A DNA stretch of 64,000 nt from Lysobacter gummosus (GTDB lineage: Bacteria > Pseudomonadota > Gammaproteobacteria > Xanthomonadales > Xanthomonadaceae): positions 2,418,001-2,482,000 of the forward strand of contig NZ_CP011131.1 in NCBI RefSeq assembly GCF_001442805.1, written 5' to 3'. Positions 50,784 through 57,354 of this stretch are shown here, in pieces. Position 1 is the first letter of the stretch, and each line of letters begins with the position of its first letter. Made by a program: the position numbers and the translations under genes. Below the pieces are notes generated by a model, which was not told where the DNA came from, did not search any database, and saw only the letters and a program-made list of their open reading frames with translations.

Positions 50784-50980
50784 GCCACAGGTGCCTTGCA
50801 CGCCGGTCCATACCGGCGCGCAGGGTGAAACGGGAAGTCGGTGCGGACGTGATCGTCCAATTCCGACGCTGCCCCCGCAACGGTAGGCGAGAACACCCGA
50901 CGTTGACCACTGCGCTCGCGCGGGAAGGTGTCGGGGTGATGCTTCGGCATCGCTCGCAAGCCCGGAGACCGGCCCGTGGC
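50784..50980 (+). ncRNA. Cobalamin (B12) riboswitch aptamer
   Basis: The region contains the conserved elements of the AdoCbl riboswitch in order: GGTGAAACGGGAA (50824-50836), GCTGCCCCCGCAACGGTA (about 50869-50885), CCACTG...GGGAAGG (about 50906-50927) and the B12 box AAGCCCGGAGACCGGCC (50958-50974). The P1 stem is GCCAC (50784-50788) with GTGGC (50976-50980). It is followed by a GGACATC-GGGA-GATGTCC hairpin (50981-50998). In known cases, bound cobalamin turns expression off. The first gene downstream is mmsA, not a transporter or cobalamin gene. Confidence 0.93.
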
Positions 50981-51076
50981 GGACATCGGGAGATGTCCTC
51001 CTCGAGTGTTGCGGCGGGCAACCTGACGGGCTGATTCGATGCGGCGTGCGTTCGCCATCGTTTCGTCTTGTCGCGC

Positions 51077-51118
51077 GTCTCCGCAACCCTCGCTTTCGCG
51101 GGTGTGCGATACGGAGAC
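51077..51118 (+). promoter_or_regulatory. Candidate ribosome-binding-site-sequestering hairpin of the B12 riboswitch
   Basis: GTCTCCG (51077-51083) is exactly complementary to CGGAGAC (51112-51118), which contains the GGAG ribosome-binding site of mmsA. Inner pairs (CAACCC with GGGTG-TG) extend the stem. This would hide the start signal and could be the off-state platform of the riboswitch. That it switches with B12 is inference. Confidence 0.55.
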
Positions 51119-51122
51119 CACC

Positions 51123-54627: not shown

Positions 54628-55811
54628 ACGCGTCGATCCAGCCCGCAATCAGCGAAACCGTCGCGCCGTCGCCGGTGTTGTTCGAACAGCGCGCGGCCGG
54701 CAACGGCCGGCGCATCGGCATCGCTACGCTCAACGCCGCGGCGACCTTGAACGGCCTGTCGCTGCAGATGGCCGAATTGCTCGACGAACAACTGCGGCTT
54801 TGGGCCGAGGACGACGCGATCGCCCTGGTCGTGCTGCAGGGCGCGGGCGAGAAAGCCTTCTGCGCCGGCGGCGATCTGCACGGGCTGTATCGCGGCATGC
54901 GCGAATACCAGGCCGGCGGTGGCGGCGACATTCGCAACAATCATCAGGCCAGCGAGTTCTTCCGCACCGAATACCGCCTCGACTATCGCATCCATCGCTA
55001 TCCCAAGCCCTTGCTGTGCTGGGCCCACGGAATCGTGATGGGCGGCGGCATCGGCTTGATGGCCGGCGCCAGCCATCGCGTGGTCAGTGAGCGCTCGCGG
55101 CTGGCGTTTCCGGAAATCACCGTCGGCCTGTATCCGGATGTCGGCGGCAGCTGGTTGCTCAACCGCGTGCCGGCGCGCGCCGGGCTGTTCCTGGCATTGA
55201 CCGGCGCGCCCTTGAACGCCAGCGATGCGATCTACGCCGGTCTCGCCGATCACCACGTGCCCGAAGCGCGGCGCGCGGCGGTGTTGACGCAGTTGAGCGA
55301 TGAAGCGTGGTCGGGCGAGGCGGAGATGGATCGCCAGCGCCTGACCGCGCTGTTGCAAGCGCATGGCGAACCCGCGCCTGCCGGGCCGCTGCAACAGCAC
55401 GCGGCGTTGATCGAGCGACTGTGCGAGGGCGAGGATTTGGCAAGCATCGTCGCGCGCATCCAGGCGCTGGACGGCGACGACGCCTGGCTGACCGGCGCGG
55501 CCAAAACGCTGGCCGCGGGCGCGCCCGGGTCGGCGCGGCTGGGCTTCGAGCTGCAACAGCGCGCGGCCGAACTGTCGTTGGCCGATACCTTTCGCGTGGA
55601 ATACCTGGTCTCGCTGCAATGCGCCGCGCACGGCGATTTCGCCGAAGGCATCCGCGCCTTGCTGATCGACAAGGACCGCACTCCGCGCTGGAATCCGCCG
55701 ACGCTGGAACTGGCCAGCGCGGGCTGGGCCGCACCGTTCTTCATCGCGCCGTGGCCGCACGGCGAACATCCGCTGTCCGATCTGGACGTTTCCACGCAGG
55801 TCCACGCATGA
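54624..55811 (+). CDS. 3-hydroxyisobutyryl-CoA hydrolase
   Basis: A 395-residue crotonase-fold thioesterase that releases 3-hydroxyisobutyrate from its CoA ester. The segments FCAGGDLHGLYRGM, GIVMGGGIGLMAGASHRVV and LAFPEITVGLYPDVGGSWLL are those of the HIBCH group. The longer length than an ordinary hydratase also fits. ATG at 54624 overlaps the upstream stop by 4 bases; an in-frame ATG 12 bases earlier is possible. Next gene is the dehydrogenase for its product. Confidence 0.93.
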   Translation: MNASIQPAISETVAPSPVLFEQRAAGNGRRIGIATLNAAATLNGLSLQMAELLDEQLRLWAEDDAIALVVLQGAGEKAFCAGGDLHGLYRGMREYQAGGGGDIRNNHQASEFFRTEYRLDYRIHRYPKPLLCWAHGIVMGGGIGLMAGASHRVVSERSRLAFPEITVGLYPDVGGSWLLNRVPARAGLFLALTGAPLNASDAIYAGLADHHVPEARRAAVLTQLSDEAWSGEAEMDRQRLTALLQAHGEPAPAGPLQQHAALIERLCEGEDLASIVARIQALDGDDAWLTGAAKTLAAGAPGSARLGFELQQRAAELSLADTFRVEYLVSLQCAAHGDFAEGIRALLIDKDRTPRWNPPTLELASAGWAAPFFIAPWPHGEHPLSDLDVSTQVHA

Positions 55812-56698
55812 GCCGCATCGCATTCATCGGTCTGGGCAACATGGGCGGGCCGATGGCGGCCAATCTGCTCAAGGCCGGATATTCCGTGCAAGTGTTCGAT
55901 CTGTCGTTCGCCGCGGTGGCGACCGCGGTCGCGGCCGGCGCCGCCGCCGCGGCGAACGCCGCCGAAGCGGTGGCCGGCGCGCAGATCGTGATCTCGATGC
56001 TGCCGGCCAGCCGCCATGTCGAAGGCCTGTACCTGGGCGACAGCGGATTGCTGGCAGTGATCGAGCCCGGCGCGTTGATCATCGACTGCAGCACCATCGC
56101 CCCGGCCTGCGCGCAGAAGGTCGCGCAAGCGGCGAACGCGCGCGGCGTGGACATGATCGATGCGCCGGTATCCGGCGGCACCGCAGGCGCCGCGGCCGGC
56201 ACGCTGACTTTCATCGTCGGCGGCGAAGCGGCGGCGCTGGAACGCGCGCGCGAGGTGCTGCAGGCGATGGGCAAGAACATCTTCCACGTCGGCGCCAACG
56301 GCGCCGGGCAGGTCGCCAAGCTGTGCAACAACATGGCGCTGGGCGTGATCATGGCCGCGACCGGCGAAGCGCTGGCGCTGGGCGTCGCGCACGGCCTCGA
56401 CCCGAAGGTGCTGTCGCAGATGATGGCGGTCAGCACCAGCCGCAGTTGGGCCACCGAAGTGTGCAATCCCTGGCCCAACGTGCTCGACAACACGCCGGCC
56501 TCGCGCGGCTACAGCGGCGGCTTCGGCAACGACCTGATGCTGAAGGACCTGGGCCTGGCGGCGGAAGCGGCGATGGGCATCGGCGCCTCGATTCCGCTCG
56601 GCGAACTGGCGCGCAATCTGTACGCGATGAACAGCCAGGCCGGCCGCGGCGCCCTGGATTTTTCCAGCGTGGTCAAGCTGGTCGCGAAGGACGCATGA
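55808..56698 (+). CDS. mmsB: 3-hydroxyisobutyrate dehydrogenase
   Basis: MmsB oxidises 3-hydroxyisobutyrate to methylmalonate semialdehyde with NAD+, giving the substrate of MmsA. The 296-residue product starts with the Rossmann motif IAFIGLGNMGGPMAANLL. It has the substrate-binding DAPVSGGTAGAAAGTL and the Lys-containing GAGQVAKLCNNM of beta-hydroxyacid dehydrogenases. It overlaps both neighbours by 4 bases, completing the valine pathway set. Confidence 0.95.
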   Translation: MSRIAFIGLGNMGGPMAANLLKAGYSVQVFDLSFAAVATAVAAGAAAAANAAEAVAGAQIVISMLPASRHVEGLYLGDSGLLAVIEPGALIIDCSTIAPACAQKVAQAANARGVDMIDAPVSGGTAGAAAGTLTFIVGGEAAALERAREVLQAMGKNIFHVGANGAGQVAKLCNNMALGVIMAATGEALALGVAHGLDPKVLSQMMAVSTSRSWATEVCNPWPNVLDNTPASRGYSGGFGNDLMLKDLGLAAEAAMGIGASIPLGELARNLYAMNSQAGRGALDFSSVVKLVAKDA

Positions 56699-57354
56699 GC
56701 GCGCAGCGCAAGCCGCTGCAACTGCCCGGCGGCGACAGGCTGCTGCTGCATTCGTGCTGCGCGCCGTGTTCGGGCGAGTTGATGGAGGCCTTCGTGGTGG
56801 CCGGCATCGACTACTCGGTGTTCTTCTACAACCCGAACATCCACCCGCTCAAGGAATACGAACTGCGCAAGGAAGAGAACATCCGCTTCGCGCAGAAACA
56901 CGGCGTTCCGTTCATCGATGCCGATTACGACACCGACCACTGGTTCGCCCGCGCCAAGGGCATGGAGAACGAACCCGAGCGCGGCATCCGCTGCACCATG
57001 TGCTTCGACATGCGCTTCGAGCGCACCGCGCTGTACGCGCACGAGCACGGCTTCCCGGTGATGACCACCTCGCTGGGCATTTCGCGCTGGAAGAACATGG
57101 CCCAGATCAACGACAGCGGCCAGCGCGCGGTCGCGCCGTACCCGGGCCTGTCGTACTGGGACTACAACTGGCGCAAGGACGGCGGCAGCCAGCGCATGAT
57201 CGAGATCAGCAAGCGCGAACGCTTCTACCAGCAGGAATACTGCGGCTGCGTGTACTCGCTGCGCGACACCAACCGCCATCGCAAGGCCCAGGGCCGCGAG
57301 CGCATCCAACTCGGCGTGATGTTCTACGGCGACGACCCGCCCGCAAGCGATTGA
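56695..57354 (+). CDS. queH: Epoxyqueuosine reductase, cobalamin-independent
   Basis: QueH performs the last step of queuosine synthesis in tRNA, reducing epoxyqueuosine, and replaces the cobalamin- and Fe-S-dependent QueG. The 219-residue product has the hallmark Cys motifs LLHSCCAPCSGE (near residue 18) and IRCTMCFDMRFER (about 101), plus YCGCVYSLRDTN. The ATG overlaps the mmsB stop by 4 bases, so it is part of the valine operon and under the same B12 riboswitch. A B12-repressible, B12-independent isozyme is a known logic for such riboswitches. Confidence 0.95.
   Translation: MSAQRKPLQLPGGDRLLLHSCCAPCSGELMEAFVVAGIDYSVFFYNPNIHPLKEYELRKEENIRFAQKHGVPFIDADYDTDHWFARAKGMENEPERGIRCTMCFDMRFERTALYAHEHGFPVMTTSLGISRWKNMAQINDSGQRAVAPYPGLSYWDYNWRKDGGSQRMIEISKRERFYQQEYCGCVYSLRDTNRHRKAQGRERIQLGVMFYGDDPPASD

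Follow-up and report, generated by a model that had tools for sequence, protein, structure and literature searches.

A cobalamin riboswitch precedes a valine-breakdown operon ending in queH in Lysobacter gummosus and probably governs a set of B12-independent functions

Isozymes of vitamin B12-dependent enzymes are an established class of cobalamin riboswitch targets, according to one report (PMC3766115), and cobalamin riboswitch control has been put to the test with metE and metH in another (PMC9600662). In the worm C. elegans, a B12-independent shunt oxidises propionyl-coenzyme A (propionyl-CoA) via acrylyl-CoA and 3-hydroxypropionate when B12-dependent use of propionyl-CoA fails, and its enzymes, reported as ACDH-1, ECH-6, HACH-1, a hydroxyacid dehydrogenase and ALH-8, are repressed by B12 (PMC4951191). 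The valine gene mmsA is controlled in Pseudomonas by the LysR-type regulator MmsR, according to a further paper (PMC6441110). Here we describe a locus of Lysobacter gummosus in which a cobalamin riboswitch stands ahead of an mmsA operon that ends in queH. The locus lies in a 64,000-nucleotide stretch of contig NZ_CP011131.1 (assembly GCF_001442805.1, positions 2,418,001 to 2,482,000 of the forward strand), which we call the window and in which all coordinates are given, unless another locus is named.

The preliminary description of this DNA had proposed a complete cobalamin aptamer followed by six genes linked through short overlaps, and both parts hold. A full-length aptamer occupies positions 50772-50991 (+), where the Rfam covariance model RF00174 aligns over its positions 1-189 with 108 bits (gathering threshold 31.5, E 4.3e-26). 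The genes follow in the order mmsA-acd-ech-hibch-mmsB-queH, with overlaps of 1, 4, 4, 4 and 4 bases and one clean frame each, all on the plus strand. The first, mmsA (51123-52646), encodes a CoA-acylating methylmalonate-semialdehyde dehydrogenase (MMSDH; TIGR01722, 741 bits, cut-off 448.5). The second (52646-53836) encodes an acyl-CoA dehydrogenase which reached no NCBIfam equivalog cut-off, and whose best solved relative is 1rx0, human ACAD8, at 453 bits, the next scoring 342; ACAD8 is isobutyryl-CoA dehydrogenase. An enoyl-CoA hydratase (53833-54627; PRK09076, 448 bits, cut-off 286), an HIBCH-like 3-hydroxyisobutyryl-CoA hydrolase (54624-55811; PRK05617, 326 bits, cut-off 274; relatives 4hdt and 3bpt) and mmsB, the 3-hydroxyisobutyrate dehydrogenase HIBADH (55808-56698; TIGR01692, 387 bits, cut-off 291.6), come next. 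The last gene, queH (56695-57354), is assigned to the B12-free epoxyqueuosine reductases through PF02677 (217 bits, cut-off 23.5) and through structure 7lc5 (E 1.6e-27), with the paired-cysteine motifs visible in the alignment; its product had no NCBIfam match. Judged by these assignments, all five enzyme types of the valine pathway from isobutyryl-CoA to propionyl-CoA are present (ACAD8-type dehydrogenase, enoyl-CoA hydratase, HIBCH, HIBADH and MMSDH). The families and the ACAD8-like dehydrogenase together therefore identify the operon as this part of valine breakdown, plus queH.

The genome, a single contig of 6.06 Mb with an estimated completeness of 100%, holds five cobalamin riboswitches, which lead the mmsA operon, a btuB locus followed by cob genes, nrdA, a second btuB and metE. 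One btuB, for the TonB-type B12 receptor, is continued by the late cobalamin genes cobB, cbiB, cobD, cobT and cobS, and the nrdA locus also has an nrdB-like gene which scores below its cut-offs. From the targets of the other four loci it follows that, uptake and salvage aside, the riboswitches stand on enzymes working without B12. The riboswitches of metE and nrdA, both of which encode B12-free enzymes, lie no more than about 11 kb apart in this genome (locus L009, G000:C1:1107000-1126500). The B12-dependent partners of these two genes are encoded as well, MetH at 1240 bits and NrdJ at 582 bits, and so is the partner of QueH: the preliminary description had asked whether queG is absent elsewhere in the genome; it is present, QueG being found with 502 bits (TIGR00276). 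For the valine genes the partner is IcmF, a fused isobutyryl-CoA mutase encoded outside the window, which scores 1682 bits with NF045497 (cut-off 1500) and aligns to the IcmF structure 4xc6 with 1316 bits; its single chain combines the B12, GTPase and mutase domains. IcmF interconverts isobutyryl-CoA and n-butyryl-CoA, and the mmsA route ends in propionyl-CoA. Since the dehydrogenase is of the ACAD8 type, operon and IcmF should use the same substrate, isobutyryl-CoA, and the simplest reason for B12 control of a valine operon is that IcmF competes for its first substrate; the same rule covers queH. We favour, at a probability of roughly three in four, the reading that the operon is a B12-independence set, in which the riboswitch represses the B12-free isobutyryl-CoA route and QueH when B12 is present. 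Four B12-free functions of one genome would then each be held down by the cofactor on which the partner enzyme depends.

Comparison across the order is in keeping with the pairing with IcmF. In a sample of 160 genomes of the same order, mmsA orthologs (at least 84% identity) occur in 23, and IcmF exceeds its cut-off in seven of these; no match at E 1e-30 was seen in the other 16, among them six genomes assembled into one or two contigs. A cobalamin riboswitch was found by the Rfam model directly upstream of mmsA in all seven carriers with IcmF and in none of the 16 without, an association with a Fisher p of 4e-6 when kinship is ignored. A further family, f8, comprises 19 genomes with mmsA 57-61% identical and no IcmF match, and none of its 18 mmsA loci examined (G073 left out) carries a riboswitch; near the mmsA operon of one f8 genome, the ALIL pseudoknot model RF01497 matches with 97 bits (L146 7164-7280), and this family is linked to mobile elements. 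In two of the loci compared, L144 and L150, less than 1 kb of sequence precedes mmsA. When MMSDH is counted from at least 57% identity, it is present in 35 of the 38 genomes without an IcmF match, as against seven of the 122 with one (116 of them over the IcmF cut-off), or 14 of 122 if seven further IcmF genomes with 50-53% identical matches are included. Over the 160 genomes, the mmsA and IcmF routes thus tend to exclude each other.

A set of 80 named loci extended the comparison beyond the order. IcmF was searched in the first 50 (leaving out L071-L100) and exceeded its cut-off in four. Undibacterium crateris, a betaproteobacterium outside the order, has both IcmF and a riboswitch on mmsA; Luteibacter sp. 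OK325 also has both, but this genome is already counted in the order sample as G115. For 71 of the 80 named loci, riboswitch status rests on an aptamer hidden Markov model (HMM) together with a motif scan. The HMM was run on the 80 named and 40 unnamed loci, with 8 of 19 rows wrongly cut (seven on the wrong strand, one at the wrong place), and on the 49 loci common to both methods it found the ten riboswitches out of ten called by Rfam and no other. A motif-scan flag in Variovorax (L030), 6.8 kb upstream of mmsA, was not confirmed by the aptamer HMM, and a Burkholderia mmsA locus checked on a replicon has no riboswitch.

The distribution of queH shows that it can come under the riboswitch on its own. 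QueG was found in 159 of the 160 order genomes and QueH in 15. Nine of these 15 queH genes lie under a cobalamin riboswitch, six as stand-alone genes and three as the last gene of a riboswitch-mmsA operon (the window, G116 and G131), in agreement with the logic that the preliminary description had expected for queH, namely that B12 would repress a B12-free isozyme. The six stand-alone genes are half of the 12 of this kind, and their genomes have no IcmF match and an mmsA free of riboswitch. A riboswitch directly upstream of a stand-alone queH was seen in a Stenotrophomonas metagenome-assembled genome (MAG; L028 2042-2271, minus strand) and in the six order genomes (L165-L168, L170 and L171), which group with that MAG on a tree of MmsA proteins. 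Conversely, four order genomes (G115, G104, G152 and G027) have the riboswitch-mmsA operon and no queH anywhere. Thus mmsA and queH are separable riboswitch targets. Since 10 of the 12 stand-alone queH genes still have mmsA at a distance of 4-18 kb (the other two being on another contig), an ancestral operon that ended in queH and was later split appears likely.

The leader of mmsA offers candidates for parts of a switch. A putative promoter, with -35 TTGTCC (50748-50753), an 18-base spacer and -10 TACACT (50772-50777), may stand at 50748-50777 (+); a consensus promoter scan of the window found no promoter there, and TACACT or TACAAT occupies the -10 place in seven of the nine mmsA leaders compared, the window among them. 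A transcript starting near 50784 would include the aptamer. The motif CCCCCGC at 50872-50878 (+), which we take to be loop L5, occurs in all nine leaders and can pair, through its CCCGC, with the GCGGG of the putative P13/L13 element GTTGCGGCGGGCAAC at 51008-51022 (+). The P13/L13 pattern GTTGCGG[C/T]GGGCAAC is kept in six of the nine leaders, with one further change in Stenotrophomonas mori and altered forms in G027 and Undibacterium. The L5-L13 pairing is possible by sequence, and the minimum-energy structure predicted for the entire leader contains it. When the leader is folded without the aptamer, the P13/L13 strand pairs instead with 51077-51087, so that between the two folds its partner changes as expected of an on-off pair. 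This corresponds to a candidate anti-sequestor at 51008-51087 (+), formed by GTTGCGG (51008-51014) and CCGCAAC (51081-51087), which is mutually exclusive both with L5-L13 and with a candidate sequestor of the ribosome-binding site at 51077-51118 (+), formed by GTCTCCG (51077-51083) and CGGAGAC (51112-51118, holding GGAG).

A stem of this kind over the ribosome-binding site is possible in four leaders with differing letters: GTCTCCG/CGGAGAC in the window, GTGCTCC/GGAGCAC in G027, CTGCTCCG/CGGAGCAG in G115 and TGTCTTGTCT/AGACAAGACA in G104. Summed over seven leaders (Undibacterium and the near-copy G131 excluded), the longest helix on the ribosome-binding site reaches 45 pairs against 32.9 +/- 2.6 in shuffled sets, none of 300 being as high, by a measure picked after viewing the sequences. 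The excess is carried by the same four of the seven leaders, in which 16 (window), 16 (G115), 0 (G104) and 27 (G027) of 300 shuffles were as long; the helix is at chance level in G152, G116 and S. mori (127, 209 and 297 of 300). No terminator was found by the terminator scan between aptamer and mmsA, which makes an intrinsic terminator unlikely, and translational repression of mmsA is the likely mode of control, as far as the leader letters can indicate.

The observed aptamer, gene families, genome partners and co-occurrence lead us to predict the following course, from ligand response and direction of control to switch mechanism and flux. When adenosylcobalamin is plentiful, the aptamer would bind it and the L5-L13 contact would form; this would favour the hairpin over the mmsA ribosome-binding site, mmsA translation would drop, and the coupling provided by the overlaps would carry the fall to the remaining genes. 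Isobutyryl-CoA derived from valine would then be handled by the adenosylcobalamin-dependent IcmF, giving n-butyryl-CoA for beta-oxidation, and epoxyqueuosine by the cobalamin-dependent QueG. Scarcity of B12 would let the operon be expressed. Isobutyryl-CoA would then be turned into propionyl-CoA by way of methacrylyl-CoA, 3-hydroxyisobutyryl-CoA, 3-hydroxyisobutyrate and methylmalonate semialdehyde, the propionyl-CoA being able to enter the methylcitrate cycle, and QueH would take over from QueG.

Several observations weigh against this reading. In the leader, the computed probability that the ribosome-binding site is paired does not exceed that of shuffles (23 of 200 sets as high, with G116 and S. 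mori below their own shuffle means). Minimum-energy folding pairs this site whether or not the aptamer is included, each time with partners other than the proposed stem. Among the named loci, Roseateles chitinivorans (L069) and a gammaproteobacterial MAG (L039) carry IcmF but lack a riboswitch at mmsA, and S. mori (L043) has a riboswitch (76 bits) and no IcmF that could be found; since the S. mori operon ends in queH, its riboswitch may be kept there for queH. A Luteibacter MAG (L021) has queH at the end of its operon and no riboswitch. For queH itself, a riboswitch is missing within 1.5 kb of six of the 12 stand-alone genes, the same six of all 15 that are without one although queG is nearly universal, and three queH loci on Cupriavidus, Burkholderia and Enterobacter replicons show none within about 3 kb. 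On a tree of 90 MmsA proteins (L022, the same genome as G115, left out), three changes account for the riboswitch and six for IcmF. The three independent riboswitch contrasts agree with IcmF in most pairings (on average 2.3 that go the same way, 0.1 opposite and 0.5 without difference) but are too few to reach significance; taken from the IcmF side, the figures are 1.9, 0.1 and 1.0. A notable contrast is that of L021, in which neither riboswitch nor IcmF was found, with two relatives that have both.

Other explanations have to be considered. Our initial hypothesis was a bacterial form of the propionate shunt described above for C. elegans, whose five enzyme classes match those of the operon and are repressed by B12 in the worm. 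It was dropped because no acyl-CoA mutase other than IcmF turned up in the genome and prpB is present. Searches with MM_CoA_mutase and PF02310 detected no methylmalonyl-CoA mutase that the shunt might back up; IcmF is the sole MM_CoA_mutase locus, and IcmF and MetH are the sole two loci with the B12-binding domain PF02310. The prpB gene of the B12-free methylcitrate cycle scores 411 bits (cut-off 354) and exceeds its cut-off in 150 of the 160 order genomes (153 at E 1e-60). The dehydrogenase, moreover, is ACAD8-like, and in the order sample it is IcmF that the riboswitch tracks, so that we consider the shunt improbable. For the same reasons, namely the undetected methylmalonyl-CoA mutase, the presence of prpB and a partner, IcmF, which acts on the same isobutyryl-CoA, the link from valine to B12 through propionyl-CoA that had been suggested at the outset is not needed. 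In this link, the cell would take B12 as an indicator of its capacity for propionyl-CoA and tune valine breakdown to match propionyl-CoA supply to B12. It agrees with the end product of the mmsA route, as given by the family assignments and the known pathway; nevertheless, the genome yielded no B12-dependent propionyl-CoA enzyme, and an OFF switch that responds to cobalamin would lower the supply of propionyl-CoA at high B12, which is the wrong direction. We regard this idea as scarcely credible.

It could also be argued that the riboswitch serves queH only and that the valine genes are passengers on a shared transcript. The stand-alone queH genes with a riboswitch of their own, in half of the 12 genomes and in the Stenotrophomonas MAG, would fit this, as would S. 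mori, with its riboswitch, queH-ending operon and undetected IcmF. However, the four order genomes G115, G104, G152 and G027 keep the riboswitch on mmsA with no queH to serve, Undibacterium does so with no queH within its 21-kb locus, and queH is the last gene of the operon, which together render the proposal very unlikely.

If the operon is indeed a B12-independence set, it becomes possible to predict in which bacteria valine catabolism can be switched by the supply of B12, and queH is expected to be under B12 control in some members of this order. A bolder view, which we put forward tentatively and hold to have clearly less than an even chance, is that the riboswitch acts as a selector at the level of pathways: B12 supply would set whether valine carbon leaves as butyryl-CoA, through IcmF, or as propionyl-CoA, through the mmsA route, with the same transcript keeping transfer RNA queuosine constant. 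Through the pools of isobutyryl-, butyryl- and propionyl-CoA, B12 supply could then also alter branched and odd-chain fatty acids, along with fatty-acid signals for which these CoA esters serve as primers. The same view would have an ancestral operon ending in queH, from which lineages that lost icmF dropped the mmsA riboswitch, some keeping one on a separated queH.

Further features lie downstream. A 75-codon frame with a GGAGG ribosome-binding site (57386-57613, +), starting 31 bases past queH, is perhaps the last gene of the unit; no NCBIfam or Pfam family matched it, and a scan of other queH loci revealed no equivalent. The terminator scan placed a terminator-like hairpin of 15 pairs at 57667-57700 (+), the longest stem among six such sites over both strands, where 5.2 are expected. 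A c-di-GMP-I riboswitch (RF01051, 44.4 bits, cut-off 35) at 60352-60435 (-) leads a gene at 57793-60309 (-), whose product of 838 amino acids begins with a stretch resembling a signal peptide and matched neither Pfam nor NCBIfam.

In the open literature we found no report of a cobalamin riboswitch on mmsA, on an IcmF bypass or on queH, RegPrecise and subscription papers being outside the search, and the accessible parts of two papers on queH or riboswitches (PMC6593275, PMC11774034) do not mention this arrangement. The Pseudomonas mmsAB valine operons share the mmsA and mmsB enzymes with the operon described here; unlike it, they differ in gene order, and the Pseudomonas mmsA loci scanned with the aptamer HMM gave no riboswitch. 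With the C. elegans shunt, the operon shares five enzyme classes and the expected repression by B12, but control here would be through an RNA switch and not a transcriptional response, the predicted input is isobutyryl-CoA and not propionyl-CoA, the dehydrogenase is of the HIBADH type, and no B12-dependent propionyl-CoA route was found for it to replace. The riboswitches of the metE and nrdAB type resemble it in belonging to the same aptamer family and in placing a B12-free enzyme under the riboswitch, with the B12-dependent partner elsewhere in the genome. Unlike in that type, the B12-free arm here is a five-enzyme route with another end product, propionyl-CoA and not butyryl-CoA, to which queH is appended. 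Therefore, although B12 control of B12-free isozymes is itself known, what appears to be new here is a B12-free arm that is a pathway instead of an isozyme, and whose product is unlike that of the B12-dependent arm.

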